Shown here piece by piece: positions 186-20,607 of a DNA stretch of 59,185 nt. This stretch comes from Solidesulfovibrio sp. Lineage in GTDB: Bacteria; Desulfobacterota; Desulfovibrionia; Desulfovibrionales; Desulfovibrionaceae. Location of the stretch: the NCBI RefSeq assembly GCF_038562415.1, contig NZ_JBCFBA010000028.1:1-59185 (forward strand), in the 5' to 3' direction. The notes under the pieces were generated by a model. It was not told the DNA's origin and did no database searches. It saw only the letters and a list, made by a program, of their open reading frames with translations. Position numbers and translations under genes: made by a program. Positions within the stretch are counted from its first letter, which is position 1. Each line of letters begins with the position of its first letter.

Positions 186-2762
186 TCAGCGCTTCGTTTG
201 TTCGGCCGCGCTGTCGCGGGCCAAGGGCGCGGGCGCGGCCAAAAAGGCTTGCGCCGCCCGGTGCGGGGCGTCGTCGTCGGTCATGGCCGCGTCGAGAAGA
301 CGGGAAAAAAGCACAAGCCGCCCCACCAGGGCCAGGGCCTCCCCTGTCGCTTCCTGGCCGGCGTCGGTGCAGTTGGCGCTGAGGAGGTCGCCCTGGCGGT
401 TGGTGAAAAAGCCGCTGGCCCGCAGGATGGTTTCGAGGCACACGGCCCGCCGCTCGCGCAGGGGCGAGGCCGCGCCGCCGCCCTTGAAGCGCAGCCGCAC
501 GTAGTTGCCCCGGGCCCGCGGGCCGCACACGGCGTCGATCATGGCGAAATGGAACTCCACCCGGGCGTTGACGTTGACGTAGTCGCGGGTGGCCAGGGCG
601 TAGTTGGGCTGGCCCACGGGCCGGCGGCCGCGGCCGTCGGTCAGGCCCCGGGCCAGGATCGCGCCGACGCCGACGGCCGAGGGCGGCGCGGCAAACGCCG
701 CCACCGGCCCGGACAGGCCCCGCCACAGGGCGGCCAGGGGAATGGAGGCGATGGCCTCCGGGCCGATGCGCGGGCCACCGGCGTTTTCGCGCAGCCCGCC
801 GCCGAGGTCGATGACCATGCATTCGAAGGGGCCGTCGCCGCGCAGCACGCGCACGGCCGGGGCGGCCTCGGCGAGCAGTGCGTCGCCGGCCTCGAACAGG
901 GCCAGCACGGCGGCTTCATGGGCAAAGCGCACGATGTCGTGGAGCGTGCGGCACTCCAGCACCGAAAACGTCGGGCCATAGGCGTCGGTCAGGCCGAGCG
1001 GCACGACCAGTTCGTGGACCAGGGCGCGCCCCGGCGGCAAGGGGGCGGCCGGCCGGAGGCCCCGCCCGGGCTGCGGCGGGCGCAGCAGGCCTTCGATGTC
1101 GCCGATGGCCGGCGGCGCGGGCACGATGCGTCCGGCATCGGCGTCGAGCACGACCAGGGCGCCCTCGGGCACGGCCTCCATGACGCCTTGCGCCCGGGTC
1201 AGCATGGGCCGGCCGGCTTCGCGGGCCAGGGTGGAAAGATGGTCCACGGGGTTGCCGCCGCAACTGGCCAGGCCCTGCCACCGCGGCAGCCCGCGGGCCG
1301 CCTCGGGCGCGGCAAAGGGGAGCAAGGCCACGACCGGCCCGCTTTCGGGCGCGTCCAGGCCGGCCGCGTCCGCGACATGGCGCGCCCGGCCCAGGCAGCG
1401 CCCGGGCGAGGCCGTCATGCCGCCGGCGAACAGCGGCCCGGCCGGCGCGGGCGGCCGGCGCGCCCCCCAGACGATGCGGGCCGGCCGCGACTGGAGCAGC
1501 CACAACCCACCCTGCGCGTCCACGGCGTATTCCAGGTCGCGCCAGGAGCCGGCCAGGGCCTCGGCGGCCAGCGACAGCCGCACCAGGCGCGACAGCGTCG
1601 CCTCGGACAGCACCGGCGCGTTGCGCGCCTCATCCGGCACGGGTTCGCGCCGGACGCCGCCGCCGGCGACGGCCACGGCCTTTCTGGTCTTGCGGGCCAC
1701 ATGGGCGATGGCATCGGCCGGGTCGTCGCGGGAGACGCGGTAGATATCCACCGGGGCCGCGCCGTTGACGGCCAGAACGCCCAGCCCCGGCACGGCCGAG
1801 ACCAGCATCCGCCCCGTATCCGGCCGCACCGGGTCGAGGCTGAAGACCACGCCGGCGGCCGTCGCCGGCACCATGACCTGGACGAGCACGGCCATGTCCA
1901 GGCCGGCCTCGGGCAATCCGGCCTGGCGGCGGTAGAGCACGGCCTGTTCGGACACGGCCCCGGCCAGCACCTCGAGGATGCCCCGCTCCAGGGTTTCGGG
2001 GGAAAGGTTCAGCACCGTGGCCAGCTGGCCGGCGAAGGAATGCTGCGGCCCGTCCTCGGTCACGGCGCTGGAGCGGACGGCCAGGGCCAGGGGCGAGCCG
2101 TGGCCGGCCGTTCGCCCCAGGTCCCGCGCGGCCGCGTCCAGGTCCCGGCGCAGCCAGTCGGGAAGGGCGGCGGCGAGGATCTCCCGGCGCAGGGCGGCGC
2201 AGGCGGCGCCGCGCCTGTCGTCCGCGCCGCCGAGTTCGCCGAGCCTTTGGTCCAGGCGCGCCTCGAGGCCGGCCTCGCGCCAGAACTCCCGGCAGGCCCG
2301 GGCGGTGACGACAAACCCCGGCGGCACGGGAAAGCCGTTTTGCAGCAGCACGGCCAGGCCGGCCGCCTTGCCCCCCGCCTCGGCCACGTCGCGGGCCTGG
2401 GCCAGGGGCAGGCAGGACGGCGGGCGGGGACTGGCCTCGACCCGCTCCAGGGCGGCGCGCAACGCCTCCTCCAGGGCCAGTTGCCTGGCGTAAAGCGCCC
2501 CCGCTCCCTTGGCGGCGAGCCTTCCCAGGCCGTCGACCATTTCGAAGGTCACGGCCACAAGCTCCTCCACCCGGCCGGCCAGGTCGGCCGTGGGCGCGCC
2601 GGAGGACAGGGCGGCCTCGACCTCGGCCAGCCTGTCCAGCGCCCGTTCGTTGTTGGCCAAAAGGATGCGGAAGGTGTGGTAGCGGACCTTGAGCGCGTCC
2701 AGCCCGGCCCGTTGCCGGGCCTGGCGCCTGTTGCCCAGGGCGCGGCGCAGCCAGGCGATCAC
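186..2762 (-). CDS. PEP-synthase-like protein 1 (PPDK_N ATP-grasp + phosphohistidine domain + unique C-terminus)
   Basis: 858 residues from a GTG start that overlaps the previous stop (GTGA), so translation is probably coupled. About residues 1-110 are helical. An ATP-grasp region of the pyruvate-phosphate-dikinase N-terminal type follows, with AVRSSAVTEDG near residue 229 and LLQSRP near 424. A swivelling-domain-like segment has its candidate phosphohistidine near residue 507 (NPVDHLSTLARE). The PEP-binding TIM barrel of real PEP synthase is absent. In its place is a C-terminal region of about 300 residues with CRTLHDIVRFAH near 605, shared with the two upstream paralogues. Last gene of a seven-gene leftward operon. 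The reaction is unknown; I infer ATP-dependent phosphoryl transfer or sensing, not gluconeogenic PEP synthesis. The sequence is more diverged than paralogue 3 (5398-8004). Confidence 0.75.
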   Translation of the reverse strand: MIAWLRRALGNRRQARQRAGLDALKVRYHTFRILLANNERALDRLAEVEAALSSGAPTADLAGRVEELVAVTFEMVDGLGRLAAKGAGALYARQLALEEALRAALERVEASPRPPSCLPLAQARDVAEAGGKAAGLAVLLQNGFPVPPGFVVTARACREFWREAGLEARLDQRLGELGGADDRRGAACAALRREILAAALPDWLRRDLDAAARDLGRTAGHGSPLALAVRSSAVTEDGPQHSFAGQLATVLNLSPETLERGILEVLAGAVSEQAVLYRRQAGLPEAGLDMAVLVQVMVPATAAGVVFSLDPVRPDTGRMLVSAVPGLGVLAVNGAAPVDIYRVSRDDPADAIAHVARKTRKAVAVAGGGVRREPVPDEARNAPVLSEATLSRLVRLSLAAEALAGSWRDLEYAVDAQGGLWLLQSRPARIVWGARRPPAPAGPLFAGGMTASPGRCLGRARHVADAAGLDAPESGPVVALLPFAAPEAARGLPRWQGLASCGGNPVDHLSTLAREAGRPMLTRAQGVMEAVPEGALVVLDADAGRIVPAPPAIGDIEGLLRPPQPGRGLRPAAPLPPGRALVHELVVPLGLTDAYGPTFSVLECRTLHDIVRFAHEAAVLALFEAGDALLAEAAPAVRVLRGDGPFECMVIDLGGGLRENAGGPRIGPEAIASIPLAALWRGLSGPVAAFAAPPSAVGVGAILARGLTDGRGRRPVGQPNYALATRDYVNVNARVEFHFAMIDAVCGPRARGNYVRLRFKGGGAASPLRERRAVCLETILRASGFFTNRQGDLLSANCTDAGQEATGEALALVGRLVLFSRLLDAAMTDDDAPHRAAQAFLAAPAPLARDSAAEQTKR

Positions 2763-5017
2763 GGCCGGACCTCCCCCCAGGCCGCCAGGAAGGCCCGTTC
2801 CAGGGATTGGGCCGCGTCCGGGCCGGACAGTTCCGTGTCGCGCTGACGGGCGAAGGCGCAAAGCGCCCCCAGAAGGCGCAGGCCCTCCAGGGCCTGGGCG
2901 TCCTCGACCATCTTGCGCCGGGCCGTGACCAGGTCGCCGGCCGTTTCCACCTTGAAATCGCAACGGGCCAGGATGCGGCGCAAAAAGGCCGTCCGGGCGT
3001 TTTTGCCGGCGGCGTCGGCCAGACCGCCGACGAAACGGAACGCGATGGTGTTTTTTTCCGGATTGCCGCAGACATAGGCATCGATGACCGTGAAGTGGTA
3101 GCCCAGGCGCAGGCTCAGGTTGCAGTAGCCGCGGGCGGCGATGGCCAGGTTGCCGCGCATGTCGGGCAACGGCCTGGCCATGGCCCCGAGGATGTCGCCA
3201 AGCCCGACCCGGGCCGGGGCGGTGTCCCACATTCCCGGGGCGAGCAGCCCGGCGAGCACGGCGGCCAGGGGGCGCGAGCGCACGGAGTCCAGCCCCGCGA
3301 CCTTGGGGGCCAGGGCGCCGCCGATGTCGAGAACCCGCAGGTCCAGGGGAACGGGCAGGGGCAACGCCGTGGCCAGCCGTTCGGACACCCCGGCCTGGCG
3401 CAGGTCGGCCAGCACGGCCACGGCCCGGTCGTGGGCGAAATGCAGGATGTCGTGCAGGGTGCGGCAGCCGGCGGCGCTGAAATCCGGGGCGCCCGGATCG
3501 GTTGCGTGCAGCACGGCGATGCGCCGCAGCAGCCGGCGCAGGACCAGGTATTCCGGATCGTCCGGGGACAGCCCCCCGTCCGGGGCCGGCCGGATCGGGC
3601 CGGCGCCCGCGAGCACGCAGCCCGCTTCGGCGTCCACCGTCACGAGCCGCCCTTCGGGCAGGGCGTCCACGGCCCCGGGGAGGCCGAACAGCGCCGGCGT
3701 GCGGTACTCCCGGGCAATGGCCGCCAGGTGCCCCACGGCGTCGCCGACCTCGGCCACCACCGCCCCGGCCCGGCGCAGAAGCGCCGCCAGGGCCGGCGAG
3801 GCCGACCGGGCCACGGCCACGGCCCCGTAGGGCAGCGTTTCCGGGGCCGTGGCCTCGCTGACGTGGACGACCACGCCGCTGGCCGCGCCGAGGCAGGCCG
3901 GCTCGCCGCCGCACAGGATCGGCGCGGCGGCGGGGCCGTTTCGCTCGGGCAAGGGGACAAAGGGCAGGAGCCTGGCCGATTCGAACGCCACCGCACCCGA
4001 CGGCTCCAGGCAAAAGCCCATCTCCACGGCCCCGCCGAGCAGGCGTTCGGCGGCCAGGCCCTGGCCGGCCAGGGAACGGGCGACTTGCGGCGACAGGCCG
4101 GGCCAGGCGCCCGGTGCGGCTTGGGCGTTCGGTTCGCCCCAGGTCCGGGCGAACGGATGGGCGCGGTCGAAATACAGGCTCACCGGCCGGGCCGGGTCGT
4201 CCTCGGCCCAGAGGTCGAAGCGCAGGGCCACGGCGCCGTCCGGACCGCCGAAGGCCGTGCGCAGGCGGCCACGGGCCACGGCCGGCGGCGTGGCCAGAAC
4301 CGTGGCCGAGGGCCTGGCTGCCGTGCCGGCCTTGGCCGCGACTTCCCGGCCCAGTTCCTCCAGGGCGGCGGCAAGCGGTTCGGCCAGGGCCGGCACGCCG
4401 GCCCGGGACAGGGTCACGGGCTCGCCGCCCGGTGCCGCCGCCGTCGCGGACACGGTCACGGCCGGACTTTCGGGAGCGCTTTCGGGGTCTTCCAGGGCCT
4501 CGGCCAGGGCCTGGCGGGCCGTGGGGACAAGGCCTCCCGCCTCGTCCCAGGCGGCCGGGGTCACGACGAAACCGCGCGGCACGGGCAGCCCCAGCCGTCC
4601 GGCCAACTCGCCCAAGGCGGCGGCGTCGCGGCCGACCTTGGGCCGGTCTTCCAGGCGCAGGCCGTGCAGGGGGCGCAGCAGGGCGTCGTCCCCGGGTTCG
4701 GGCCGTCCGGCCAGGATGTCCTCCACGGCGGCGGCCAGGGCCATGAAGCGGTCGTAGAGGTCGATATGGCGGTTGCCGGTCATGGCGTTGAGGGCATAAA
4801 CGGCCTGATGGGCGAAATCCGTCACTTCCCGGGCGGATTTTTCCAGAAAGGCCCGGTCGAAGACGTATTCGCCGCCGAGCATGCGCTCCAGGCCGGCCAT
4901 GGCGGCCAGGGCGGCGGTGTTGGCTTCGAGCAGCGCCTGGAATTTCGAGAAGAAGGCCCGGGCATCGCCTGCGGGCGCATCGGGGCGGACACGGCCCGCG
5001 GTCGCGTCAAAAGGCAT
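2759..5017 (-). CDS. PEP-synthase-like protein 2, degenerate ATP-grasp region
   Basis: 752 residues. The ATG at 5015-5017 was chosen because it overlaps the end of the receiver gene by 11 bp and starts the region that aligns with the paralogues (MLGGEYVFDRAFLEKSARE in this protein, KLGGEYVFDRRYIEAA in paralogue 3). The ATP-grasp region has lost the AVRSS motif, and QSRP has become ESARL near residue 345, so ATP binding is doubtful. The swivel-domain histidine is kept (VGDAVGHLAAIAREYRTP, about residue 428), as is the family-specific CRTLHDILHFAH near 520 and a late LGYHFTVIDAYVCG segment. It is probably a non-catalytic partner or phospho-carrier for its neighbours (inference). The stop overlaps the GTG start of paralogue 1. 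Confidence 0.72.
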   Translation of the reverse strand: MPFDATAGRVRPDAPAGDARAFFSKFQALLEANTAALAAMAGLERMLGGEYVFDRAFLEKSAREVTDFAHQAVYALNAMTGNRHIDLYDRFMALAAAVEDILAGRPEPGDDALLRPLHGLRLEDRPKVGRDAAALGELAGRLGLPVPRGFVVTPAAWDEAGGLVPTARQALAEALEDPESAPESPAVTVSATAAAPGGEPVTLSRAGVPALAEPLAAALEELGREVAAKAGTAARPSATVLATPPAVARGRLRTAFGGPDGAVALRFDLWAEDDPARPVSLYFDRAHPFARTWGEPNAQAAPGAWPGLSPQVARSLAGQGLAAERLLGGAVEMGFCLEPSGAVAFESARLLPFVPLPERNGPAAAPILCGGEPACLGAASGVVVHVSEATAPETLPYGAVAVARSASPALAALLRRAGAVVAEVGDAVGHLAAIAREYRTPALFGLPGAVDALPEGRLVTVDAEAGCVLAGAGPIRPAPDGGLSPDDPEYLVLRRLLRRIAVLHATDPGAPDFSAAGCRTLHDILHFAHDRAVAVLADLRQAGVSERLATALPLPVPLDLRVLDIGGALAPKVAGLDSVRSRPLAAVLAGLLAPGMWDTAPARVGLGDILGAMARPLPDMRGNLAIAARGYCNLSLRLGYHFTVIDAYVCGNPEKNTIAFRFVGGLADAAGKNARTAFLRRILARCDFKVETAGDLVTARRKMVEDAQALEGLRLLGALCAFARQRDTELSGPDAAQSLERAFLAAWGEVRP

Positions 5018-5420
5018 GGCGTCGGGTTCCCTGCCGCGCTTCGAGGCGGCCGACCACGTCCAGGATGTCGGCCAGCTTGAAGGGTTTGGCCACGAAGTCG
5101 AAGGCGCCCTTGTGGAAGGATTCCTTGGCCGTTTCCAAGGTGGCGAAGCCGGTGATGACGATGACGCCGACATCGGGCGAGACGGCTTTCACCCGGTCGA
5201 GGAAGGCGATGCCGTCGAGGCCCTCCATTTTAAGGTCGGTGATGACGATGTCGGCCGGATTGTTCTCGAACGCGGCCAGGGCCTCCTGGCTGTCCGTGAA
5301 GGCCTCCACGTCGTAGCCGGCCTTCTGGAAGGCGGGCTTGAGGCGTTTGACCACGATGGGCTCGTCGTCGAGGATGAGCAGTCGGCGTTTGCGCGGCTCA
5401 GGGGTTTCGGGCTGGGTCAT
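5007..5420 (-). CDS. Stand-alone response-regulator receiver protein
   Basis: 137 residues forming a single CheY-like receiver domain without an output domain. Visible are the acidic pair in LLILDDEP, the phosphoacceptor Asp in VITDLKMEGLDG, a Thr in VIVITGFAT and the conserved Lys in VAKPF. It lies between PEP-synthase-like paralogues 3 and 2 and overlaps both (23 bp with the upstream gene, 11 bp with the downstream gene), so it is certainly cotranscribed and probably translationally coupled. It may relay phosphate between a kinase, perhaps the one at 10462-11931, and the PEP-synthase-like proteins (inference from position). Confidence 0.9.
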   Translation of the reverse strand: MTQPETPEPRKRRLLILDDEPIVVKRLKPAFQKAGYDVEAFTDSQEALAAFENNPADIVITDLKMEGLDGIAFLDRVKAVSPDVGVIVITGFATLETAKESFHKGAFDFVAKPFKLADILDVVGRLEARQGTRRHAF

Positions 5421-8004
5421 GGGCGTCCTCCGTCACCGCCGCGATGGCGGTGAGAAATTCCGTGGCGAAACAGTGGGCGTCGTCCTCGCGGCCAAGGCGC
5501 ACGTCGAGCTGGCGGGTAAAGCCGACCAGGCCGCCTAAAAGGCGCAGCTTGGCGCGCATGGCCGGCAGATCGACCTTCTTGATGCGCCCGACCACCAGGT
5601 CGCCGTGGATCTCGACCCGGAAATCGGCCCGCTCCAGGATCTTGCCGATGCAGCGCGCCCGCCTGGACCGGCGGTCGAAATCCGTCACCCCGCCCAGAAA
5701 CCGGAAATAGAGCGAATTGTCGTTTACCACCTCGCCGGCGTAGGCGTCGATGAGGATGAAGTGGTAGCCCAGGTGCAAATTGAGGTTCATGTATTCGTTG
5801 GAGACCACGGCCAGGTTGCGGCCGAGCTTTTCCTCGCCCGGGCCGCCCATGCCGAGCGTGCGCGTGAGGCTGGCCATGAAGCTGCCCATGTCCACGGGCA
5901 CCGGGTCGGTGTCCCACATGCCCGATCCGGTCAGCCCGGCGAGCAGCTCGCGAAGGGGCAGCGAGGGCAGGGCCTCGGGCGCGATCTCGCCGCCCTGGGC
6001 GCTGCCGTCGCCGTCGAGGTCGATGATGGAGAGGTTGAGCGGCAAGGCCGTGCGCAGCTTGCGGGCCGAGGCGTCGAGGATGCCCCGGCGGTTTTCGCTG
6101 AACGCGACCAGTTCGGCCACGGCCTGTTCGTGGATGTAGCGGGTGATGTCGTGGTAGGTGCGGCAGGAGGCCGGCGTGAAGCCCGGGGCGTGGGGATCGA
6201 CGAGGTTTAAGGGCGTGATCTTTTTCAGCAGCCGGCGCAGCAGCCGGTATTCGTAGGAGTCCTCGTAGACCGCCTCCTCGGTCAGCTCGAAGTAGCGCAG
6301 CTCCTTGACCAGGCCCCGGTAGACCACGTTTTGCGTGGCGTCCACGGTGATCTCGTCCCCGGTTTCGAGCAGCCGCGTGGCCAGGCCGCAGCCGACCACC
6401 GTGGGCAGGCGGAACTCCCGGGCCACGGCGGCCATGTGGCCGGCCGGGGAGCCGATGTCGGTCAGTATCCCCTGGGCCCGGGGCATGATGCGGGAAAAGC
6501 GCGGCGAGGTGTGGTGGGCGATAAGGATCGCGCCGAAGGGGAAATCGTCGAGGTCGGCGTCGCCACGCACCACGTAGGCCGTGCCCATGGCCACGCCGCG
6601 CTGGACCACGTCGCCGCGGCCGGAAAAGAGGACCTCGGCCTTTTCCGTGGCCGCGTCGATGGCCCCGGTGCGCCGGGCCGGATCGCCGTGGAAGACCATG
6701 GGCCGGCTTTGCAGGATGTAGAGCCGGCCGGCGGCGTCGATGGTCCATTCCACGTCTTGCGGCCGCTTGAAATACTTTTCCAGGGAGACGGCCGCCTCGC
6801 CGAGCAGCGACAAGTCGGCCTCGGCCAGGCAGGGGGCATCGGCCTTTTGCGGCGGCAGGTCGGTATAGGCCGTGCCGCCTTCCGGGCGCAGGGCGAGGGC
6901 CTGGGGCTTGTGGGCGATCTCCCGGGACAGGCTGGCGAAGGGCGCCCGCCGGCCGATGAGGTAGGAATCGGTGTCCAGTTCGCCGGACATGATGGGCGCG
7001 CACAGCCCCCAGGCGGCGCTGACGAAGATGCCCTCCTCCTTGCGCGTCAGCGGCGCGTAGGTGTAGAGCCCGCCGCTGACCACGGAATCGATCATGACCT
7101 GGCAGCCCACGGCCATGACCGCCTCGTGCTCCCGAAAGCCCCGGCGACGGCGGTACAGCCAGGCCTCGGGCGTGTAGGCCCCGGCCACCACCCGCTTGAA
7201 GGCCTCGGCCGCCTGGGACGGCGGCACGCCGATGACGCTTTCGTACTGGCCGGCGAAGCTCGTTTCGCCGTCCTCGTTCCAGGCCGAACTGCGCACGGCC
7301 AGGCTCCGGGGCGGCCGGCCCAGCCGCCCGGCCAGGGCGGCCAGGGCCTCGGCCAGGCCCCGGGAGAGGCTTTTGGGCAGGCTTGCCGCCAGGATGCGCT
7401 GGCGCACCGTGGCCGAAGCCTCGGCGAGGGCCCCTTCCTCGTCGGCGTCGAGCCGCTCGGTCTGGCGGGCGATGAGCTCGGGCAGGCCGTTTTTGGCCAT
7501 GAACGCGGCAAAGGCCCCGGTGGTGATGACGAACCCGTCGGGCACGGGCAGCTGGAGCACGTTTTTGAGTTCGCCGAGCATGGCGAACTTGCCGCCGGCG
7601 GCCTCGGCCATGTCGGCCCGCAGGGCGGACAGGGGCAGGGTGGGGGCGGTGTCCGGGAAATGGTGCCGCCCGGCCAGCTCGTCGGCGATCTCCTGGCGCA
7701 CGGTTTCGAAGGCCGTGAAAAGCGGCACGTTGCGGCAGCGGTTCAAAATGGACAGGTCGGAAACGAGCTTGAAGATCTGGTCGGCCATCTCCTCGCAGGC
7801 GGCCTCGATGTAGCGGCGGTCGAAGACGTATTCGCCGCCGAGCTTGTCCCCCATGTCGGCCATGAGCGTGAGGATGCGGTTGTTGCGTTCGAGGATGCTC
7901 TTGAATTTCTTGAACAGCACCACGAAGGGCACCGGGGCCTTGCCCCGGGGCGCGAGCCGCAACGCCTGTCCGATCCTGCCGAGCACGCCCATGGCCGATT
8001 GCAT
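5398..8004 (-). CDS. PEP-synthase-like protein 3 (best-conserved paralogue)
   Basis: 868 residues. After an N-terminal helical part (about 1-130) come VPDGFVITTGAF and an intact ATP-grasp signature AVRSSAWNEDGETSFAGQYE near residue 240. LYILQSRPMVF is near 432 and a canonical-looking phosphohistidine segment near 523 (DIGSPAGHMAAVAREFRLPT). The C-terminal 300 residues carry CRTYHDITRYIHEQAV near 615 and LGYHFILIDAYAGE, not a PEP/pyruvate barrel. Of the three paralogues this one most plausibly still binds ATP and undergoes His phosphorylation. It begins 9 bp after the TIGR02186-like gene. Annotation as pyruvate phosphate dikinase or PEP synthase would overstate it. Confidence 0.8.
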   Translation of the reverse strand: MQSAMGVLGRIGQALRLAPRGKAPVPFVVLFKKFKSILERNNRILTLMADMGDKLGGEYVFDRRYIEAACEEMADQIFKLVSDLSILNRCRNVPLFTAFETVRQEIADELAGRHHFPDTAPTLPLSALRADMAEAAGGKFAMLGELKNVLQLPVPDGFVITTGAFAAFMAKNGLPELIARQTERLDADEEGALAEASATVRQRILAASLPKSLSRGLAEALAALAGRLGRPPRSLAVRSSAWNEDGETSFAGQYESVIGVPPSQAAEAFKRVVAGAYTPEAWLYRRRRGFREHEAVMAVGCQVMIDSVVSGGLYTYAPLTRKEEGIFVSAAWGLCAPIMSGELDTDSYLIGRRAPFASLSREIAHKPQALALRPEGGTAYTDLPPQKADAPCLAEADLSLLGEAAVSLEKYFKRPQDVEWTIDAAGRLYILQSRPMVFHGDPARRTGAIDAATEKAEVLFSGRGDVVQRGVAMGTAYVVRGDADLDDFPFGAILIAHHTSPRFSRIMPRAQGILTDIGSPAGHMAAVAREFRLPTVVGCGLATRLLETGDEITVDATQNVVYRGLVKELRYFELTEEAVYEDSYEYRLLRRLLKKITPLNLVDPHAPGFTPASCRTYHDITRYIHEQAVAELVAFSENRRGILDASARKLRTALPLNLSIIDLDGDGSAQGGEIAPEALPSLPLRELLAGLTGSGMWDTDPVPVDMGSFMASLTRTLGMGGPGEEKLGRNLAVVSNEYMNLNLHLGYHFILIDAYAGEVVNDNSLYFRFLGGVTDFDRRSRRARCIGKILERADFRVEIHGDLVVGRIKKVDLPAMRAKLRLLGGLVGFTRQLDVRLGREDDAHCFATEFLTAIAAVTEDAHDPARNP

Positions 8005-8013
8005 CCGTTTCGC

Positions 8014-8772
8014 CTAGTGGGCGCCGCTTTTGGAGCCGGAGAACAGCTGGCCGATGACCAGGCCGCCGAGGATGGCGATGATGGAGGCCAGGATGCCGTA
8101 GAGGGCGCCGTGGCCGAAGGCCATGTCGGCCAGGAAGGCCGGGGCGCCGACGAAGGAGGCCGTCATCGTGGCCTGGCCCCTGGCCGCCACGGCGCCGTTA
8201 TCGAGGGCCAGGACCTCCACGGCGTAGGCGCCGGGCGAAAGCCGCGACGGCAGGCGCAGCACGGCCGTAAACGGCCGCGTGTCCCCGGCGTCGGGGCCGA
8301 GCGTCACCTGGCCGGCGTTTTCCAGGTAGAGCTGCTCCGCTTGCTGGAACTTCAGGAACTCGGCCAGCAGGGCCGCCTTGTCCGGATCGTTGGATTCGAC
8401 CGTGATGGTCCTGGCCAGCCCGGGCACGCCCAGGCCGGAGACGACCGCGGCCGGCGCCTCGGGCGAGGCGGCGACCAAAAAGACGCTCGGCGCGCCGGCG
8501 AAAGCCACCTTTTCGGTATTCATCCACAGGACGCCGAGCACCCGGGCCTTCTGCTTCATGCGGAAGGTTTCGGGCTCGCCGGCCAGGCGCACCACGACCT
8601 GGCTCCCGGCCGGGACGTCGCCGGTCACGGTCAGGTCCGTGCCGTTGTAGAGCGAATTGATGGCCACGGCCTGGGGGGCCAGGGTCAGGGGCGGCAGCGA
8701 CGCGGCCCGGGCCGGGGCGGCCAGGGCGGCCGTCAGGCCCACGGCCAGGGCAAGGGCGGACAGGCGGCGCAT
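8014..8772 (-). CDS. TIGR02186-like exported membrane-anchored protein
   Basis: 252 residues from MRRLSALALAVG. There is an N-terminal signal peptide ending near PARAA, a large extracytoplasmic beta-rich domain, and a C-terminal transmembrane helix (about 225-247, ALYGILASIIAILGGLVIGQ) with a short cytoplasmic tail. This architecture and the adjacent TauE/SafE permease fit the TIGR02186 family, which is commonly found beside such permeases. Its function is unknown; it may be a periplasmic partner of the permease. It starts one base after the permease stop and ends nine bases before the PEP-synthase-like gene, so it is in the same operon. Confidence 0.75.
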   Translation of the reverse strand: MRRLSALALAVGLTAALAAPARAASLPPLTLAPQAVAINSLYNGTDLTVTGDVPAGSQVVVRLAGEPETFRMKQKARVLGVLWMNTEKVAFAGAPSVFLVAASPEAPAAVVSGLGVPGLARTITVESNDPDKAALLAEFLKFQQAEQLYLENAGQVTLGPDAGDTRPFTAVLRLPSRLSPGAYAVEVLALDNGAVAARGQATMTASFVGAPAFLADMAFGHGALYGILASIIAILGGLVIGQLFSGSKSGAH

Positions 8773-8773
8773 G

Positions 8774-9712
8774 CTAGTGTCCTCCGATGGCCGCAAGCAG
8801 CACGCTCGGCCGGGCCAGCAGTTCGTAGAGCATCTTGAACATGACCAGCAGCACGATGCCGGCCAGGTAGATCTTCAGTTGGTCGCCGTGGAGTTTTCGG
8901 CCGATGCGCGCCCCGAACTGGGCGCCGATGGCCGAACCGATCAGAAGCAGCAGGGCCAGCACGAAGTCCACGGTGTGGTTTTCGGCCGCCTGCATGATGG
9001 TGACGTTGATGCAGGTGAAAAGGACCTGGAACAGGCTCGTGCCCACGACCACGTGCATGGGCATGCGCAGCATGTAGACCATGACCGGGACCATGATAAA
9101 TCCGCCGCCCACGCCCATGATGGCCGACAGCACGCCGACCAGGCCGCCGAAGAAAAGCGGCGTCAGGGCCGACTGGCGGATGCCCGAGCGGGGGAAGTCC
9201 ATCTGGAAGGGCAGGCCGGCCATGAAGGCGGCGTAGCCCGAGGCTTTCGCCGGGGCGGCCTTGGCCGGGGCCGGTTTCTTGGCCTTTCTCATGGAACTGA
9301 GGGACTCGAAGAACATGTAGGAGCCCACGCCGCCGAGCATGAGCACGTAGGTGATGGCGATGCAGAAATCGGCGTTGCCCATGGCCCGCAATATCTTGAT
9401 GAGCTGCACGCCCACGGTGCCGCCGAGCACGCCGCCGACGAGCAGCAAAACGCCCATCTTGACGTCGACGTTGCCCAGGCGCAAATGGATCAGCGTGCCC
9501 GAGGTGGAGGCCCCGACGATCTGGTTGGAGTCCGAGGCCGCGGCCACGGTGGCCGGAATGCCCATCATCATGAGCAGCGGGGTCATCAGGAACCCGCCGC
9601 CCACGCCGAAAATGCCCGACAGCAGGCCCACCCCGCCGCCAAGGCCCAGCACGGCCAGGATGTTCACCGAATTGCCGGCGATGGGCAGGTACAGGGTCAT
9701 GGGGATGCTCAT
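8774..9712 (-). CDS. TauE/SafE family permease
   Basis: 312 residues, strongly hydrophobic, with two homologous halves each carrying a glycine-rich loop: GLLSGIFGVGGGFLMTPLL near residue 29 and GVLSAIMGVGGGFIMVPV in the second half, as in the TauE/SafE (DUF81) family. A hydrophilic Ala/Lys/Pro-rich linker (about 143-158) joins the halves. Family members export or import sulfite, sulfoacetate and related organic anions. In a sulfate reducer an anion of the sulfur cycle or a C2/C3 acid is plausible, but the substrate cannot be read from sequence. It overlaps the end of the upstream universal-stress-like gene by 4 bp. Confidence 0.88.
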   Translation of the reverse strand: MSIPMTLYLPIAGNSVNILAVLGLGGGVGLLSGIFGVGGGFLMTPLLMMMGIPATVAAASDSNQIVGASTSGTLIHLRLGNVDVKMGVLLLVGGVLGGTVGVQLIKILRAMGNADFCIAITYVLMLGGVGSYMFFESLSSMRKAKKPAPAKAAPAKASGYAAFMAGLPFQMDFPRSGIRQSALTPLFFGGLVGVLSAIMGVGGGFIMVPVMVYMLRMPMHVVVGTSLFQVLFTCINVTIMQAAENHTVDFVLALLLLIGSAIGAQFGARIGRKLHGDQLKIYLAGIVLLVMFKMLYELLARPSVLLAAIGGH

Positions 9713-10155
9713 GTCGCCTCACCTTTCGCTTGTGTCTCGTTTGGCTCCCGGCGCGGGGTCACAAGCTCCACCCGGCAGGAGACGCCATGCAGGATGCGCC
9801 GCAGGGATTGGGCCTCCCGCTCCGATGCGCGCCCTTCCCCCTCGGCCGATTCCGACACCAGGAGCGTGATCTTGCGATCACGAGCGAACCGGATCACCTC
9901 TTCCTCGAAGTCCCCTTCGGTCACGAAGTATTCGATGCCGACGCCCTCTTCCCGAGCCCGCTGCACCAGCAGGCGCACCCGCCGACGGTCGTCGGCCTCG
10001 GCCAGGGGCGGCGCGCCCCGGACGGTTTCCCCGGGCCGTTCGGTCACGAACAGCACATGGACCCTGGCCTCGATGCGCCTGGCCAGGGAGAGCGCCCGGG
10101 TGAGGGCGGCGAAGGCCCCGTGACGGGACGTCATGCCGACAAGTATGCGTTCCAT
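9709..10155 (-). CDS. UspA-like universal stress domain protein
   Basis: 148 residues starting MERILVGMTSRHGAF, an N-terminal beta strand and helix typical of the UspA fold. The C-terminal half (IRFARDRKITLLVSES) resembles the second alpha/beta unit, but a full G-2x-G-9x-G(S/T) ATP motif is not evident, so it is probably a non-ATP-binding Usp. It is the promoter-proximal gene of the operon that continues through TauE, the TIGR02186-like protein and the three PEP-synthase-like proteins. The start codon lies only about 23 bp from the -12 box of the sigma-54 type element. Confidence 0.7.
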   Translation of the reverse strand: MERILVGMTSRHGAFAALTRALSLARRIEARVHVLFVTERPGETVRGAPPLAEADDRRRVRLLVQRAREEGVGIEYFVTEGDFEEEVIRFARDRKITLLVSESAEGEGRASEREAQSLRRILHGVSCRVELVTPRREPNETQAKGEAT

Positions 10156-10177
10156 GGGTTTCTCGGCCCTGGCCAAA

Positions 10178-10192
10178 GCAACCGGCGGGCCA
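10178..10192 (-). promoter_or_regulatory. Sigma-54 (-24/-12) promoter of the usp-tauE-PEP-synthase-like operon
   Basis: On the minus strand the sequence reads TGGCCCG-CCGG-TTGC, one mismatch from the sigma-54 consensus TGGCACG-N4-TTGC. It faces the leftward operon, and transcription would start about 10 bp before the first start codon at 10155. A sigma-54-dependent activator gene lies just across the divergent intergenic region. The rest of 10156-10461 holds the divergent start of the kinase gene; I could not identify an activator-binding repeat with confidence. Confidence 0.65.
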
Positions 10193-10461
10193 AAAGGGCT
10201 GGATGGCGCAAGGGGCCAGGATCACGGGGATTGTGCCCATGGCGGCCCCTCCGGGCAGGGGGCGGTGTTCCAGATTGAAATGTTCCTGGCCAAGGCGGCC
10301 GCCACATGTTTCACTCTGGGACGCCCGGGGCCGGGGGATTGGGAAAAAACGCGCGATGGCGGGCCGGCGGGATTGGAATGGCCTTTGCTGCCGTGGGGCA
10401 ACGGCAAAAGCCCGGCCGCCGGCGCATGGGGCGCGGCGGCCGGGAAAAAAGGATGACCGGC

Positions 10462-11927
10462 ATGTTGCGCACCATCCGTTCCAAAATGCTCTTCGTGTTC
10501 GCGGCGAGCCTTTTCACCGTGACCGCCCTGGCCGGGCTGCACCTCGGCAGCCTGTCGGCGCTGCGGGAACGCTACCTGGTCAGCGAACGCATCGAGGAGC
10601 TGCAAAGCGACATCCTGGAGGTGCGCCGCTTCGAGAAGAACTATCTGCTCTACCACGACGCGGGCAGCCTTCGCGAGGGGCTGGACTACCTCGACGCCGT
10701 GGACCGGCTGGCCGGGGGCCTGACCGGCGGCATGGACCAGGAACTGGGGCCGGCGGCCTCCCGCGAATTCCTGGGCGACCTGACCGCCTACCGGGCGGCC
10801 CTGTCCGCCCTGCCCCAGGCCGGCATCCCCGAAACGGCCGCGACCGAAGCCGTGCGCACCAAGGGCAAGGCCCTGACCGATTTCGCCACCCGGCTGCTTT
10901 CGGACAAGCGCCGGCGCATCCACGAGACCATCAACCGCTCCCTGGCCCTGCCCTTCGCCTTTGCCGGGGTGTTCCTGGCCCTGACCGTTGCCGTTGTGGC
11001 CCTGGTGTCCACCCGGGTGCTGCGGCCCTTGACCCTTCTGCGCCAAACCACCCGGCGCGTGGGCGAAGGCGACTTCCGGCCCGTTCCGGTGCGCGAGGGC
11101 CTAAGCGACGAGATCGCCGGGCTGCTGGGGGCCTTCAACCTCATGGCCCACCAGCTCGAAGCCAACCAGGAACATCTGCTGCAAGCCCGCAAGATGGCGG
11201 CCCTTGGCACCTTCACCGCCGGCGTGGCCCACGAGCTCAACAACCCCATCAACAACATCACGCTGACCGTGGACGCCCTGCGCGAAGACCACGCGGAAAG
11301 CCTCGACGCCCAGGGCCGGGAGCTCCTCGACGACATCACCGCCCAGGCCGACCGGGCGGCGGACATCGTGCGCAACCTCCTCGATTTCTCCCGCACCGAG
11401 CGTCCGCCCCTGGTCGACCTGTCGCCCCTGGAGGTGGCGGCCAGCAGCGCCTCCCTGGTCAAGAACCAGATGCAGGCCGCAGGCATCGCCTTCACCCTGG
11501 ACGTGCCGGCCGCGCTGGCACCCGTTCGCGGCGACCTGCGCAGCCTCCAGCAGGTGCTGGTCAACATCCTGCAAAACGCCGCCCAGGCCACGCCCCGGGG
11601 CGGCACGGTGCGCCTTCGCGTGGCGGCCGGGCCGGACGGCGAAACCGCCTTCACCGTGGACGACTCCGGCCCGGGCGTGCCGGACGAGGTCCGGGAGCAC
11701 ATTTTCGAGCCCTTCTACACCACCAAGGGTGTGGGCAAGGGCACGGGGCTGGGGCTGGCCGTGGCCTATTCCCTGACCAAGCGCCACGGGGGACGGCTCG
11801 AGGTGGACGCCTCGCCCCTGGGCGGCGCGGCCTTCACCGTCCGGCTGCCCGGCGTCCCCCGCCCGCCCGCCGGATCGGCCCCGGCAACCTCCGCGCCCGG
11901 CCCGAAAATCGCCCAGGAGCCCGCATC

Positions 11928-11931
<4 letters not shown>
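10462..11931 (+). CDS. Membrane sensor histidine kinase
   Basis: 489 residues. The ATG at 10462 is preferred over the ATG 9 bp upstream because AAGGA lies 8 bp before it. Layout: TM1 (about 9-27); a periplasmic helical domain of about 125 residues rich in charged heptads; TM2 (about 155-180); HAMP; dimerisation/phosphoacceptor domain with His near residue 257 in GVAHELNNPI; and a HATPase domain with NILQNAAQAT (N box), DDSGPGVP (G1) and GKGTGLGLAVA (G2). No PAS domain is seen. It overlaps the activator gene (GTGA), so the two form a pair. Ligand unknown. Confidence 0.93.
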
Positions 11932-13271
<1,340 letters not shown>

Positions 13272-15415: not shown

Positions 15416-16384
15416 TTATCTGGCGCGTTGGACCGCCTCGGTCAGGGCCGGCAAAAATTCCAGGACATCCGCCACAATCCCCACGTCGGCCACCTGGAAG
15501 ATGGGCGCGCCGGGATTCTTGTTGATGGCCACGATGAAGGGATTGCCCTTGATGCCGCCCATGTGCTGGAAGGACCCGCTGATGCCGCAGGCGAGGTAGA
15601 CCTTGGGCTTGACGGTCTGGCCGGAGGTTCCGACCTGGCGCGAGTGCTCCAGCCATCTGGCGTCGACAATGGGCCGCGAGCAGGCCACGGCCGCCCCCAT
15701 GGACTTGGCGAGCTCCACGGCGAGATCGATGTTTTCCTCCGCCTCGATGCCACGGCCCACGGCCACGAGGACCTCCTCCTTGGTGATGTCCACGTCGCCG
15801 GCCTCGGGCACCACCCGCTCCAGGAACCGCCGCTTGGCCGCCACCACGCCGATCTCACCGGACTTGTCCTCCACCGTGCCGGCAATGGCGGGCGCGGCCG
15901 GGGCGAAGCTGCCGGCCCGGCAGGTGACGACCATGCCGCCGGCGCTTTCCACGGCGACGCGGCTGCCCACCTGACCGCCGAACTCCTGGCGCACCACGCC
16001 AAGGGTCCCATCCTCCATCCCCCGGATGTCCACGACATCGGAGACGTATGCGGCGCTGCGCTTGACCGCCAGGCCGGGGGCCAGGTCCATGGCGAAGGTG
16101 TCATGGATCATGAGCACGATGGCCCCTGCCGGCAGGGCCGACACGAGCACCGGCCGCAACGCCTCGGCATTGGGATAGGCCAGGGCTTCGTGGGAAAACT
16201 TCCAGACCGTCTCATAGGCCGTGGCCAGGGCCCCCGCCGCCGCGTGCAGCCCGGGGCCGTGCCCGGCCACCACGGCCGTCACGGGCGCCTCGGCGTCGAT
16301 CTTTCGGGCGGCGGCAAGCAGTTCCAGGGCCGTCTCGTCGATCACCCCGTCGTTGTGGGCGATATAGGCAAAAATCGGAGCCAT
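15416..16384 (-). CDS. etfA: Electron transfer flavoprotein, alpha subunit
   Basis: 322 residues starting MAPIFAYIAHNDGVIDE. The C-terminal FAD-binding part shows VACSRPIVDARWLEHSRQVG, SGQTVKPKVYLACGISGS and the closing helix after FIVAINKNPGAPIFQVADVG, all standard EtfA signatures. With EtfB it takes electrons from an FAD dehydrogenase and passes them on. Here the partners are the GlcD/GlcF-like proteins and the membrane Fe-S oxidoreductase of the same operon, arguing for delivery to the menaquinone pool. The start codon overlaps the last base of etfB. Last gene of the operon. Confidence 0.95.
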   Translation of the reverse strand: MAPIFAYIAHNDGVIDETALELLAAARKIDAEAPVTAVVAGHGPGLHAAAGALATAYETVWKFSHEALAYPNAEALRPVLVSALPAGAIVLMIHDTFAMDLAPGLAVKRSAAYVSDVVDIRGMEDGTLGVVRQEFGGQVGSRVAVESAGGMVVTCRAGSFAPAAPAIAGTVEDKSGEIGVVAAKRRFLERVVPEAGDVDITKEEVLVAVGRGIEAEENIDLAVELAKSMGAAVACSRPIVDARWLEHSRQVGTSGQTVKPKVYLACGISGSFQHMGGIKGNPFIVAINKNPGAPIFQVADVGIVADVLEFLPALTEAVQRAR

Positions 16385-17166
16385 TATTTCAACCCTCCCT
16401 TGTCCTTGAGCATTTCGAGCAGCCTGGCGATGATCGCCTCGGTGTCGCCCTCGAGCATCTCGGCGCCCATGCCCGGTTCCGGCATGAAGTAGGCCTCCCG
16501 CCTGACCCGGGGGGCCAATGCCCCGTCGTCAAGTCCCAGGTCGGCGGCGCCCAGGCAGGGGATGTCCGCCGACGCCACCTGACGCAGGCCGCGGATGCCC
16601 ACGTAGCGGGGCTCGTTGATCCCGGTTTGGATGGACAGGACGCACGGCAATTCGATTTCGCTGATTTCCCGGGCACCGCCCTCGACCTCGCGGCTGATCC
16701 GCAGGGCCTTGCCATTGGTGACCTCGACCTTGTTGACCAGCGAGGCGTAGGGGTAATCCAGCATGGCGGCCAGCATGCCCCCGACCTGGGCGGCACCGTC
16801 GTCGGCCTGGGCCCCGGTCAGGATCAGGTCGTAGCCGCCCCGTTTGGCCGCGGCCGCAAGCACCGTGGCCACGCCCCGGCCGTCGAGGCCGGCAAAGGCC
16901 GGATCATTGAGCAAAAGGGCCTTTTGCGCGCCCATGGCCAACTCACGGCGGAGCACCTCCTCGGCTTCCTCGTCGCCCACGGTGACCACGGTCACGCTGC
17001 CGCCCAGGCGGTCCACGGTCTGGATGGCCTCTTCCACGGCGTAGTTGTCCCACTCGTTGACCGAATAGACCAGATCGTCCCGTTCGATGTCGTCCTTGGC
17101 CGCGTTGAGTTTGATCTCGTTTTCCAGGGTGCCGGGCACCCGCTTGACGCACACCAGAATCTCCAT
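16384..17166 (-). CDS. etfB: Electron transfer flavoprotein, beta subunit
   Basis: 260 residues starting MEILVCVKRVPGTLE. Visible EtfB landmarks are VYSVNEWDNYAVEEAIQ, the nucleotide-binding region LILTGAQADDGAAQVGGMLA and the recognition loop LPCVLSIQTGINEPRYV. It forms a heterodimer with EtfA. Sequence alone does not settle whether this ETF bifurcates electrons or is a simple quinone-linked type; the adjacent membrane Fe-S oxidoreductase favours the latter. It lies 72 bp downstream of that gene. Confidence 0.95.
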   Translation of the reverse strand: MEILVCVKRVPGTLENEIKLNAAKDDIERDDLVYSVNEWDNYAVEEAIQTVDRLGGSVTVVTVGDEEAEEVLRRELAMGAQKALLLNDPAFAGLDGRGVATVLAAAAKRGGYDLILTGAQADDGAAQVGGMLAAMLDYPYASLVNKVEVTNGKALRISREVEGGAREISEIELPCVLSIQTGINEPRYVGIRGLRQVASADIPCLGAADLGLDDGALAPRVRREAYFMPEPGMGAEMLEGDTEAIIARLLEMLKDKGGLK

Positions 17167-17238
17167 GACGTCCTCCAGCGCTATGTTCGTCCGGCCCCGG
17201 CCCCGGCATTCGCCGCGGCGCCGGGACGTGGGGGCACC

Positions 17239-19308: not shown

Positions 19309-19400
19309 CACGTGTATCCTTCGTGGTTGTCGTGGCGAAAGCCCGGGTCTTCATCCGGCCGGTCCGGGGTTCCCCGGACCGGCCGGCGCCGCGGGCGCGG

Positions 19401-20579
19401 CTACAAGGCCTGGGCGCAGAACTCGGCCAGGCTCAGGACCTCGAGGGAACCTTCGGCGTTGGCCACCTTGGCCCCGTCGCGCATGTTGATGAAGCACCAG
19501 GGACAGGCGGTGACCAGCACGTCCGCCTTCTTGTCCAGGGCTTCGCCGACGCGGATGTTGGCCAGCCTGTTCACCTCGGAGTCGAAATCCGCCCACATCC
19601 GGCCGCCGCCGCCGCCGCAGCACAGGCTGTTGACGCGGTTGTCGCCGAACTCGAGCAGCGCGACACCGGGAACGCTGGAGAGGACCTGGCGCGGTTCGTT
19701 GGTGATGTTGTTGCTCTTGGACAGGTAGCAGGGATCGTGATAAATGACCTTTTTTTCGAGCTTGCCGCCGAAATCGAGCCGCTTCGCCTTCACAAGGTCA
19801 GCCAGCATGGCCGTATAGTGTTGGACCTTGACGCTGTGCATCTGGTCCTGCGGGTACTTTTTGAGGAACGTGTCGTAGCAGTGCGGCGAGAGCGTCACGA
19901 TGCTCTTGACGCCATGCCGCTGGAACAGGTCGAGGTTCCGGGTGTACATTTCCTCGAACAGCGCCGATTCGCCCATCTTGAGGGCGGGCTCGCCGCAGCA
20001 GCTTTCGTCTTCCAGCACACCGTACGCGACATTGGCCTTGTCGAGGATCTTGCCCAGGGCCACCGCCGTTTTCTGGACATCCTCCTCGATGGCGCTGGAA
20101 CAGCCGAGATAGAGGAGGAATTCCGCCGGTTCGGCATAACTCTTGAGGTTGAGTCCCTTGACGATCTCCTTGCGTTTTTTCGCCGTGACCATGTAGGGGT
20201 TTCCGTTGTTGTACAGGGACTCGAGGACCTTTTTTTGCTGCGGCATGGGGCCGATCTGCATGTCGATGAGCAGCTCCCGGCCCTTTTCGATGGCGTCGAC
20301 CAGCTTGGTGCCGGTGCTGAGCGTCTTGCAGGCCACCTCGCAGCTGCCGCAGGTGGTGCACTTGTAGACGATGTCCCGCAGTTCGTTCAGGACGTCCTTG
20401 TCCTGCTCGTCCCACTTGGCCGCATAGAACAGGGACCGGGTGATGCCGGAAGCGCCCTGGCTGACTTCCTTGGAGGTGATCTGGAATCTGGGGCAGCTCG
20501 GCAGGCAGAAACGACAGTTGATGCAGTACTTCAGGATGTCTATGATTTCGCCCTTCAGCTGGGCATGATGCTCGTTCAT
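19401..20579 (-). CDS. GlcF/LldF-like Fe-S oxidoreductase subunit
   Basis: 392 residues starting MNEHHAQLKGEIIDILKYC. N-terminal dicluster ferredoxin motifs are CINCRFCLPSCP (about 18-29) and CTTCGSCEVAC (about 73). Two CCG domains follow, with SCCGEPA near 196, DPCYLSKSN near 283 and LCCGGGGG near 320. This is the usual partner of GlcD-type FAD subunits in glycolate and lactate oxidation, carrying electrons from flavin onwards. It begins 28 bp after the FAD subunit stop and precedes the membrane Fe-S protein. Confidence 0.9.
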   Translation of the reverse strand: MNEHHAQLKGEIIDILKYCINCRFCLPSCPRFQITSKEVSQGASGITRSLFYAAKWDEQDKDVLNELRDIVYKCTTCGSCEVACKTLSTGTKLVDAIEKGRELLIDMQIGPMPQQKKVLESLYNNGNPYMVTAKKRKEIVKGLNLKSYAEPAEFLLYLGCSSAIEEDVQKTAVALGKILDKANVAYGVLEDESCCGEPALKMGESALFEEMYTRNLDLFQRHGVKSIVTLSPHCYDTFLKKYPQDQMHSVKVQHYTAMLADLVKAKRLDFGGKLEKKVIYHDPCYLSKSNNITNEPRQVLSSVPGVALLEFGDNRVNSLCCGGGGGRMWADFDSEVNRLANIRVGEALDKKADVLVTACPWCFINMRDGAKVANAEGSLEVLSLAEFCAQAL

Positions 20580-20607
20580 GGCAGTCTCCTTGGTGATCCG
20601 TAGGCCG

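Follow-up and report, generated by a model that had tools for sequence, protein, structure and literature searches.

A seven-gene operon lies at the start of the window, by which we mean the whole stretch of 59,185 nucleotides analysed here (C28:1-59185), part of a 5.07-Mb Solidesulfovibrio genome. Its genes share the minus strand and run head to tail from position 10155 down to 186, encoding in turn a universal stress protein (Usp), a TauE permease, a PF09608 protein, PEPS1, a lone receiver, PEPS2 and PEPS3 (Table 1). Judged by their sequences, the three PEPS proteins belong to a large uncharacterised family, for which we coin the name PEPSx, that retains the ATP-grasp and swivelling phosphohistidine domains of phosphoenolpyruvate (PEP) synthase and has its PEP barrel replaced. 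What was observed here is gene content, gene linkage, residue conservation, co-distribution with the sulfate-reduction markers aprA and dsrA, and the presence of sigma-54-like sites.

An earlier note on this DNA, the original prediction, had proposed an operon of three PEP-synthase-derived paralogues with a receiver, a TauE permease, its probable TIGR02186-like partner and a Usp protein, and gene calls and Pfam agree with this gene content. The receiver gene is wedged between its neighbours as proposed, sharing 23 bp with PEPS1 and 11 bp with PEPS2; an overlap of 4 bp is seen both at the PEPS2-PEPS3 and at the Usp-TauE junction, and the remaining intergenic gaps are 1 and 9 bp. The wording "TIGR02186-like" was apt for the third protein, which matches PF09608 and reaches only 60.3 bits against the TIGR02186 equivalog (cut-off 255.25); inspected by eye, it is probably a membrane-anchored periplasmic protein. 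Among the matches listed, the closest named relatives at the locus are Solidesulfovibrio records.

Table 1. Features of the operon and of the adjoining divergent gene pair, in window coordinates.
Feature	Position	Strand	Remarks
Usp, universal stress protein	9709..10155	-	148 aa; first gene of the operon; PF00582 43 bits (cut-off 24)
TauE/SafE (TSUP family) permease	8774..9712	-	312 aa; PF01925 E=5e-45, 154 bits (cut-off 32.6)
PF09608 (Alph_Pro_TM, TIGR02186-like) protein	8014..8772	-	252 aa; PF09608 E=2e-38, 133 bits (cut-off 24.5)
PEPS1, PEPSx protein	5398..8004	-	868 aa; PF01326 E=3e-72, PF00391 E=2e-20
PEPSc region of PEPS1 (new C-terminal domain)	5398..6252	-	
Lone CheY-like receiver	5007..5420	-	137 aa; PF00072 E=2e-27; phospho-acceptor Asp62, Lys112
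PEPS2, PEPSx protein	2759..5017	-	752 aa; PF00391 E=5e-13; PF01326 E=0.024, below cut-off
PEPS3, PEPSx protein	186..2762	-	858 aa; GTG start; PF01326 E=9e-67, PF00391 E=1e-5
Sigma-54-like promoter site TGGCCCGCCGGTTGCT	10177..10192	-	1 mismatch; 21 bp upstream of the Usp ATG
Sensor histidine kinase (HAMP, HisKA, HATPase), divergent	10378..11931	+	start uncertain; Pfam on 10435-11931, gene call
NtrC-type sigma-54 response regulator	11928..13271	+	Pfam on 11943-13271, gene call

Architecture and conserved residues of PEPSx

From its N terminus, PEPS1 consists of a helical part, an ATP-grasp domain, a swivel domain with His523 and a C-terminal region, PEPSc, that holds His618, Asp619, His625 and His748; PEPS3 has an intact ATP-grasp domain (PPDK_N), swivel His508 and a C-terminal PEPSc. 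The ATP-grasp and phosphohistidine domains that mark a PEP synthase are present in PEPS1 and PEPS3, and PEPS2 lacks the ATP-grasp residues. The expectation that all three paralogues keep these parts therefore stands for PEPS1 and PEPS3 and fails for PEPS2, which has lost the ATP-grasp site and kept the His; with a dead ATP site in the middle copy, the paralogues also differ in kind. Replacement of the PEP barrel was predicted correctly, as the operon's PEPS proteins have no PEP_utilizers_C match in Pfam and the match of PEPS1 to TIGR01418 (293 bits, cut-off 740) ends early, at model position 462 of 784. Another protein of the same genome (C2:139757-142546) matches the PEP synthase model through position 783.

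PEPSc is about 290 aa long and includes a common CRTxHDI....H motif, with 42% (PEPS2) and 35% (PEPS3) identity to PEPS1. That this shared region belongs to no known family agrees with the Pfam search, in which it gave no match for PEPS1 and only scattered ones elsewhere, each family being hit by 2 or fewer of 119 relatives even when E values as high as 10 were allowed; no relative was found by sequence in the PDB (one match, E=0.46). In the structure prediction advised earlier, AlphaFold2 gave a mean predicted local distance difference test score of 85.7 for PEPSc and 81.4 for full PEPS1, and Foldseek returned nothing for the PEPSc model at E<=0.001, its best match being unusable (4h5b, E=0.042, TM 0.23/0.38, root-mean-square deviation 10.3 A). 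The order of elements in PEPSc may resemble that of YbjN or type III chaperones, a likeness that we do not claim. The closest solved relatives of PEPSx by sequence are entries named PEP synthase, among which we take some to be of the rifampin phosphotransferase (RPH) type, and the swivel domain matches the phosphohistidine swivel domain of enzyme I.

Six PEPSx genes occur in this genome, three in the operon and one each at loci L009, L010 and L012. With a profile built from these six, 78 of the 198 sampled genomes of the phylum proved to carry PEPSc, as a rule within open frames some 850 to 970 codons long, and the richest genome had at least 12 matches. A scan of named genomes confirmed at least 488 PEPSx relatives, and the relatives include records named Nitrospirae, Zixibacteriota, Latescibacterota, Ignavibacteriaceae, Deferribacteres and Myxococcota.

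Residues were counted in 185 distinct PEPSx proteins, the pooled sets minus 9 duplicates that are still included in an earlier residue comparison and in the PEPSx tree. The swivel His is present in all 185. At ATP-site positions chosen by conservation across 15 true PEP synthase frames, the residues kept are Lys (167), Arg (171), Glu (184), Asp (160), Glu (168), Gln (168) and Arg (171). Within PEPSc, in PEPS1 numbering, His618 and His748 are kept in 185, Asp619, His625, Arg782 and Asp834 in 184, and Asp802 in 182. In RPH, which carries phosphate on His825, activity is lost in the Lys22Ala mutant, rifampin phosphorylation is lost in Arg117Ala and nothing is lost in Glu297Ala (PMC4844700); thus, not every ATP-site residue need be essential.

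The ATP-grasp domain of PEPS2 is degenerate, and two of the eight tested active-site residues remain (one Glu and swivel His430), together with the invariant His and Asp residues of PEPSc. Eighteen PEPSx proteins hold five or fewer of the eight residues, and each is the copy that follows the receiver in a three-copy operon; an ATP-dead middle paralogue with its swivel His was seen in all 18 distinct three-copy operons, the window included. Because ATP-site residues have been lost, PEPS2 is probably unable to load itself from ATP. With the swivel His retained in 18 of 18, and by analogy with HpeH, which has a separate ATP-grasp protein as its partner (PMC12167813), it is probably maintained as a possible phosphohistidine carrier. 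A pseudogene was ruled out by the open frame and by the His kept throughout these operons.

The operon's receiver has the phospho-acceptor Asp, the Lys and the Thr of two-component receivers. Among 104 distinct receivers adjacent to PEPSx the Asp is kept in 104, which excludes a pseudo-receiver, and the Lys in 102. An orthodox phosphorelay donor was sought in the seven operon proteins, where Pfam gave no HisKA or HPt match, and the nearest histidine kinase (HK) pairs with NtrC. In a Myxococcota record (L119), PEPSx and receiver are fused in one frame of 993 aa, the only such case among 203 PEPSc frames.

Gene neighbourhood and distribution

A neighbourhood survey had been suggested as the check on linkage, and the genes proved to be consistently linked in relatives. 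PEPS1-type loci were the best 80 of at least 488 relatives found with PEPS1-type queries, a set that favours its own kind because the best rows for those queries were kept. TauE and PF09608 are both upstream in 62 of the 65 loci with enough contig, and a receiver is directly downstream in 73 of 79; L064 was scored as a miss on both counts through mis-anchoring, the genes being present there, and in L110 and L115 the receiver is upstream of PEPSx instead. Within set distances, Usp was found at 40 of 62 loci, NtrC at 34 of 51, and PEPS2 with PEPS3 at 16 of 55. The order TauE-PF09608-PEPSx-receiver recurs in relatives, records from other phyla included, and this recurrence rules out a chance neighbourhood.

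The wider family was sampled in 60 stretches of 3.7 to 20 kb, a non-random set of the best-scoring rows of the phylum search. TauE was present in 45, a small receiver in 48 and both in 36, with PF09608 in 13, Usp in 28, HK in 41 and NtrC in 30; TauE was found in 32 of the 47 stretches without PF09608. By comparison, 20 hand-picked control stretches (5.9 to 16.9 kb) around true PEP synthase or pyruvate phosphate dikinase (PPDK)-like genes, 13 of them over the PEP_synth cut-off and 7 read as PPDK-like, contained no TauE, small receiver or NtrC, with Usp in 2 and HK in 4. Nine of these 20 stretches come from genomes with PEPSx.

Linkage to TauE was also counted by PEPSx clade, the clades being cut by tree depth and some having low support (0.187, 0.091). 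It amounts to 39/42 and 26/29 in PEPS1-like clades, 15/17 in the PEPS2-like clade, 19/28 in the L010 clade (accompanied by a DVU0150-family small protein and a DUF4881 lipoprotein) and 16/27 in the L009 clade (accompanied by a 235-aa membrane protein). Only 2 of 16 members of the PEPS3-like clade have TauE within 5.5 kb, in keeping with the position of PEPS3 at the distal end of the operon. In the TauE tree, 77 PF09608-linked proteins and that of the window form one exclusive clade, with basal support of 0.196 and an inner group of 76 at 0.909. Three further TauE genes of this genome (L215, L217 and L218), on contigs without a nearby PEPSx, fall within the clade of PEPSx-linked TauE from other genomes, and it is possible from this placement that they are in-trans partners of L009 and L010.

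Neighbours were clustered for a clue to the substrate, and no telling enzyme emerged from the 25 largest clusters, which were judged by eye and five of which were also compared with Pfam. Recurrent unlabelled neighbours were membrane proteins, the DUF4881 lipoprotein, the DVU0150-family small protein and a metallophosphatase. The last, calcineurin-like, is found near PEPSx at L047:16317-16982 and in 16 further loci, chiefly beside operons with three PEPSx genes; in L047 and L063, the two loci inspected, its gene lies beyond PEPS3 in the opposite orientation, and the window stops short of the equivalent place. The small membrane protein of the DVU0150 family (NF040783) is found near PEPSx at L150:2741-3040 and in 19 further loci, where the PEPSx is usually one of the L010 clade, and its recurrence may tie the PEPSx family to the sigma-54 operon DVU0150-0146. 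At L009 (5813-10665), PEPSx is preceded by a trypsin-like protein, identified by eye; the protein encoded after it looks secreted and resembles transglutaminases weakly (PF13369, 22.2 bits, cut-off 23.5).

The whole window contains two one-mismatch sigma-54-like sites, one of which is TGGCCCGCCGGTTGCT; at up to three mismatches, the pattern is not enriched in the window (71 found, 101 expected). A site with GG and GC kept and at most two mismatches precedes 35 of 63 homologous operons, against an expectation of 0.018 per region derived from the remainder of the same loci. The kinase part at 10435-11931 weakly resembles the helical bimodular (HBM) sensor domain (below cut-off for PF16591, with E=0.00036), a possible hint of ligand class. 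Farther along, at 15416-22038, translations resemble by eye an EtfAB, Fe-S/heterodisulfide-reductase-like and FAD-oxidase set.

Among the 198 sampled genomes of the phylum, aprA is over its cut-off in 83 and dsrA in 100. PEPSx is present in 68 of the 79 genomes with both markers compared with 2 of the 94 with neither; these two (G113 and G164) are 76% and 73% complete, and G164 has a partial aprA. Conversely, 71 of the 78 PEPSx genomes have aprA and 73 have dsrA, the five without dsrA being 62 to 80% complete. In other phyla, dsrA occurs in 6 of 8 PEPSx genomes and is lacking in L116 and L121. Fisher tests gave 5e-25 for dsrA and 1.6e-32 for aprA, values that overstate the evidence because the genomes are phylogenetically non-independent.

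The Desulfovibrio nitrate cluster

In stating that it knew of no matching named system, the original prediction missed the Desulfovibrio "nitrate cluster", which likely has an orthologue elsewhere in the same genome. Locus L012 (G000:C5:146000-163000) encodes, in this order, TauE, a membrane protein of 190 aa, a binding protein of the phosphonate type, HK, receiver, PEPSx and DSP phosphatase, and an additional protein of 402 aa, secreted-looking by eye, is inserted after the small membrane protein. It agrees in content and order with DVU0251-0245 and Dde_0598-0605 (Table 3 of PMC4001038), and on the strength of gene content, order and size we regard it as the likely orthologue of DVU0245-0251. 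The nitrate cluster (DVU0245-0251/Dde_0597-0605), annotated by domain only, resembles the operon in joining a TauE permease, a lone receiver and a PEPS-derived protein in one cluster. It differs in its phosphonate-type binding protein, own HK, small membrane protein and DSP phosphatase, whereas the operon has PF09608, Usp and three PEPSx. Pfam found no PtxB-like binding protein, DVU0250-like protein or DSP phosphatase among the seven operon proteins, all three being present at L012, and across the loci counted PtxB, DSP and h0250 occur once each, at L012.

In single mutants, insertions in DVU0246 (PEPSx), DVU0247 (receiver), DVU0250 and DVU0251 (TauE) were described as giving growth at 100 mM nitrate indistinguishable from nitrate-free growth, with DVU0245 mutants remaining nitrate-sensitive and none of the cluster insertions helping with nitrite (Korte 2014, PMC4001038). 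The same source cites unpublished data that G20 mutants of the cluster are mildly sick on thiosulfate, and its authors suggest a leaky thiosulfate transporter. In L012 the permease gene precedes those of the receiver and PEPSx, and the shared gene order suggests that it presumably does so in D. vulgaris Hildenborough too. Simple polarity fails to explain the receiver and PEPSx phenotype, because of this order and because mutants of the next gene, DVU0245, are sensitive. The predicted action of a phosphohistidine protein and a receiver together with a permease fits these genetics, as it fits the invariant His and Asp and the one fusion.

Mutant data on such a cluster were found in Korte 2014 alone, and further fitness data may exist (Carlson et al. 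2015). As far as their available text goes, the G20 energy paper names no Dde_059x or Dde_060x gene (PMC4215793), a regulator survey holds nothing direct on these genes (PMC3333781), and a biofilm paper names DVU0251 once (PMC3431258). A D. vulgaris sigma-54 study describes nine operons under sigma-54 that include TSUP or PSE transporters, and states that data on the substrates of these transporters are lacking (PMC4641369). The literature search found no mention of TIGR02186, PF09608 or Alph_Pro_TM, and the literature found assigns PEPSx no role.

Proposed mechanism and competing explanations

We tentatively propose, at somewhat less than an even chance of being right, that ATP-fed phosphohistidine proteins and a receiver control or energise a TSUP permease in a recurring module of dissimilatory sulfate reducers. 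The module would combine the TauE permease with an accessory protein in the periplasm or membrane, a lone receiver and between one and three PEPSx proteins, and the permease would carry an anion, probably a sulfur oxyanion. ATP bound in the ATP-grasp domain of PEPS1 and PEPS3 would phosphorylate the swivel His much as in PEP synthase and, there being no PEP barrel, the phosphoryl group would be used for signalling or carrying. Likely partners in its exchange would be the receiver Asp, the His of ATP-dead PEPS2, or both, and PEPSc would serve for docking, for sensing or as an acceptor. ATP, AMP and phosphate would set the phosphorylation state, which would then control or energise TauE post-translationally, and the divergent kinase/NtrC pair would turn the operon on via sigma-54. 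Because sulfate activation itself turns over these nucleotides, using ATP and releasing AMP and pyrophosphate, a half reaction of the PEPS type would be in a good position to sense it.

To our knowledge, no named system has this make-up. The PEP-dependent sugar phosphotransferase system (PTS) shares with PEPSx the phosphohistidine swivel domain, in enzyme I, and a phosphotransfer that serves transport. However, the PTS is fed by PEP through the barrel and uses HPr and EII, whereas the operon has an ATP-grasp domain, a receiver and a TSUP permease. VadK (Rv1127c), a precedent, is an autophosphorylating histidine kinase derived from PPDK and moved from PEP metabolism to regulation; its partners are methylcitrate-cycle enzymes, with no receiver or permease named in the text available, and it is likened here by description only (PMC13400623). 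A study of TSUP/CysZ-type permeases in sulfate reducers found TSUP proteins, of which the operon's TauE is one, in each of its 44 genomes, with functions unassigned, and its main text does not contain "phosphoenolpyruvate" or "response regulator" (PMC5840216). A phenotype of the related cluster and histidine kinases derived from PPDK are already known.

Several points weigh against the proposed control of the permease. Phosphotransfer and its direction, the gating, the substrate and the action of NtrC on the operon are all steps that we infer, and the PEPSx-receiver fusion was seen in one case only. No TauE match was found in 15 of the 60 PEPSx stretches, nor on contigs C29 and C39 of the same genome, which bear the PEPSx of L009 and L010. 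Twelve of the 83 aprA genomes are without PEPSx, and PEPSx is therefore not indispensable. The mutant phenotypes come from a paralogous cluster whose accessory genes differ, pooled and single-mutant data conflict for DVU0250 and DVU0248 (PMC4001038), the available text of a later D. vulgaris fitness paper names no DVU024x or DVU025x gene (PMC10102598), and the link of the cluster to thiosulfate is weak. Finally, the invariant polar residues of PEPSc could equally well belong to a small-molecule active site.

That last point leads to an unlikely yet substantial alternative, in which PEPSx proteins are small-molecule dikinases: the swivel His would phosphorylate a PEPSc-bound substrate, perhaps imported by TauE, for trapping or activation, and the receiver would only regulate the enzyme. 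The domain logic is that of RPH and HpeHI, which like PEPSx combine ATP-grasp, a swivelling phosphohistidine and a third domain other than the PEP barrel (PMC4844700, PMC12167813). In HpeHI, the ATP-grasp and the swivel His are in separate proteins, and the His protein without ATP-grasp is comparable to PEPS2 (PMC12167813). Both systems phosphorylate small molecules, in contrast to what we propose for PEPSx, and RPH has its His domain at the C terminus (PMC4844700, PMC12167813). The solved relatives named PEP synthase also favour a dikinase, and the PEPSc residues His618 and His748 (185/185) and Asp619, His625, Arg782 and Asp834 (184/185) look active-site-like. However, no metabolic enzyme is conspicuous among the recurrent unlabelled neighbours, the recurrent partners being a receiver and a permease, and an ATP-dead copy in every three-copy operon seen, with the high PEPSc number of the richest genomes, would suit signalling better.

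It is more doubtful still that the receiver is the master, phosphorylated by an ordinary HK and switching PEPSx by binding, with no phosphoryl transfer between the two. Canonical receiver residues are kept, an HK gene adjoins the receiver at L012, and HK genes occur in 41 of the 60 PEPSx stretches. However, the sole nearby kinase gene in the window overlaps that of its own partner, NtrC, and this explanation leaves the His of PEPS2, without an ATP site, unexplained. An authentic PEP synthase or PPDK in three divergent isoenzymes, with incidental permease linkage, is extremely improbable even though PEP synthase models give high scores for the ATP-grasp and swivel domains, because the PEP/pyruvate barrel is absent, which makes PEP synthase activity unlikely and rules out an ordinary enzyme, while another protein of the genome matches the model to position 783 and the TauE linkage is systematic.

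The proposed control or energising of a TSUP permease by PEPSx and the receiver bears on two open questions, namely how sulfur oxyanions enter sulfate reducers and how this entry is controlled, and why loss of the nitrate cluster gives nitrate resistance, which is relevant to the control of souring with nitrate. PEPSx is often present in multiple copies per genome and is widespread with aprA and dsrA, although Pfam offers no model for its C-terminal domain. Target residues (His523 and Asp62) and genetic backgrounds (D. vulgaris Hildenborough and D. alaskensis G20) exist, so that the idea can be put to the test directly. In a bolder form, which we consider improbable, the module would be an ATP-driven counterpart of the PTS, in which phosphohistidine formed from ATP would couple the ATP/AMP/phosphate state, on which sulfate activation has a direct disturbing effect, via the ATP-dead PEPS2 carrier and the receiver, to a TSUP oxyanion permease. 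If true, dissimilatory sulfate reduction would have in this module a signature system for its control or energising, placed at the point where the electron acceptor enters.

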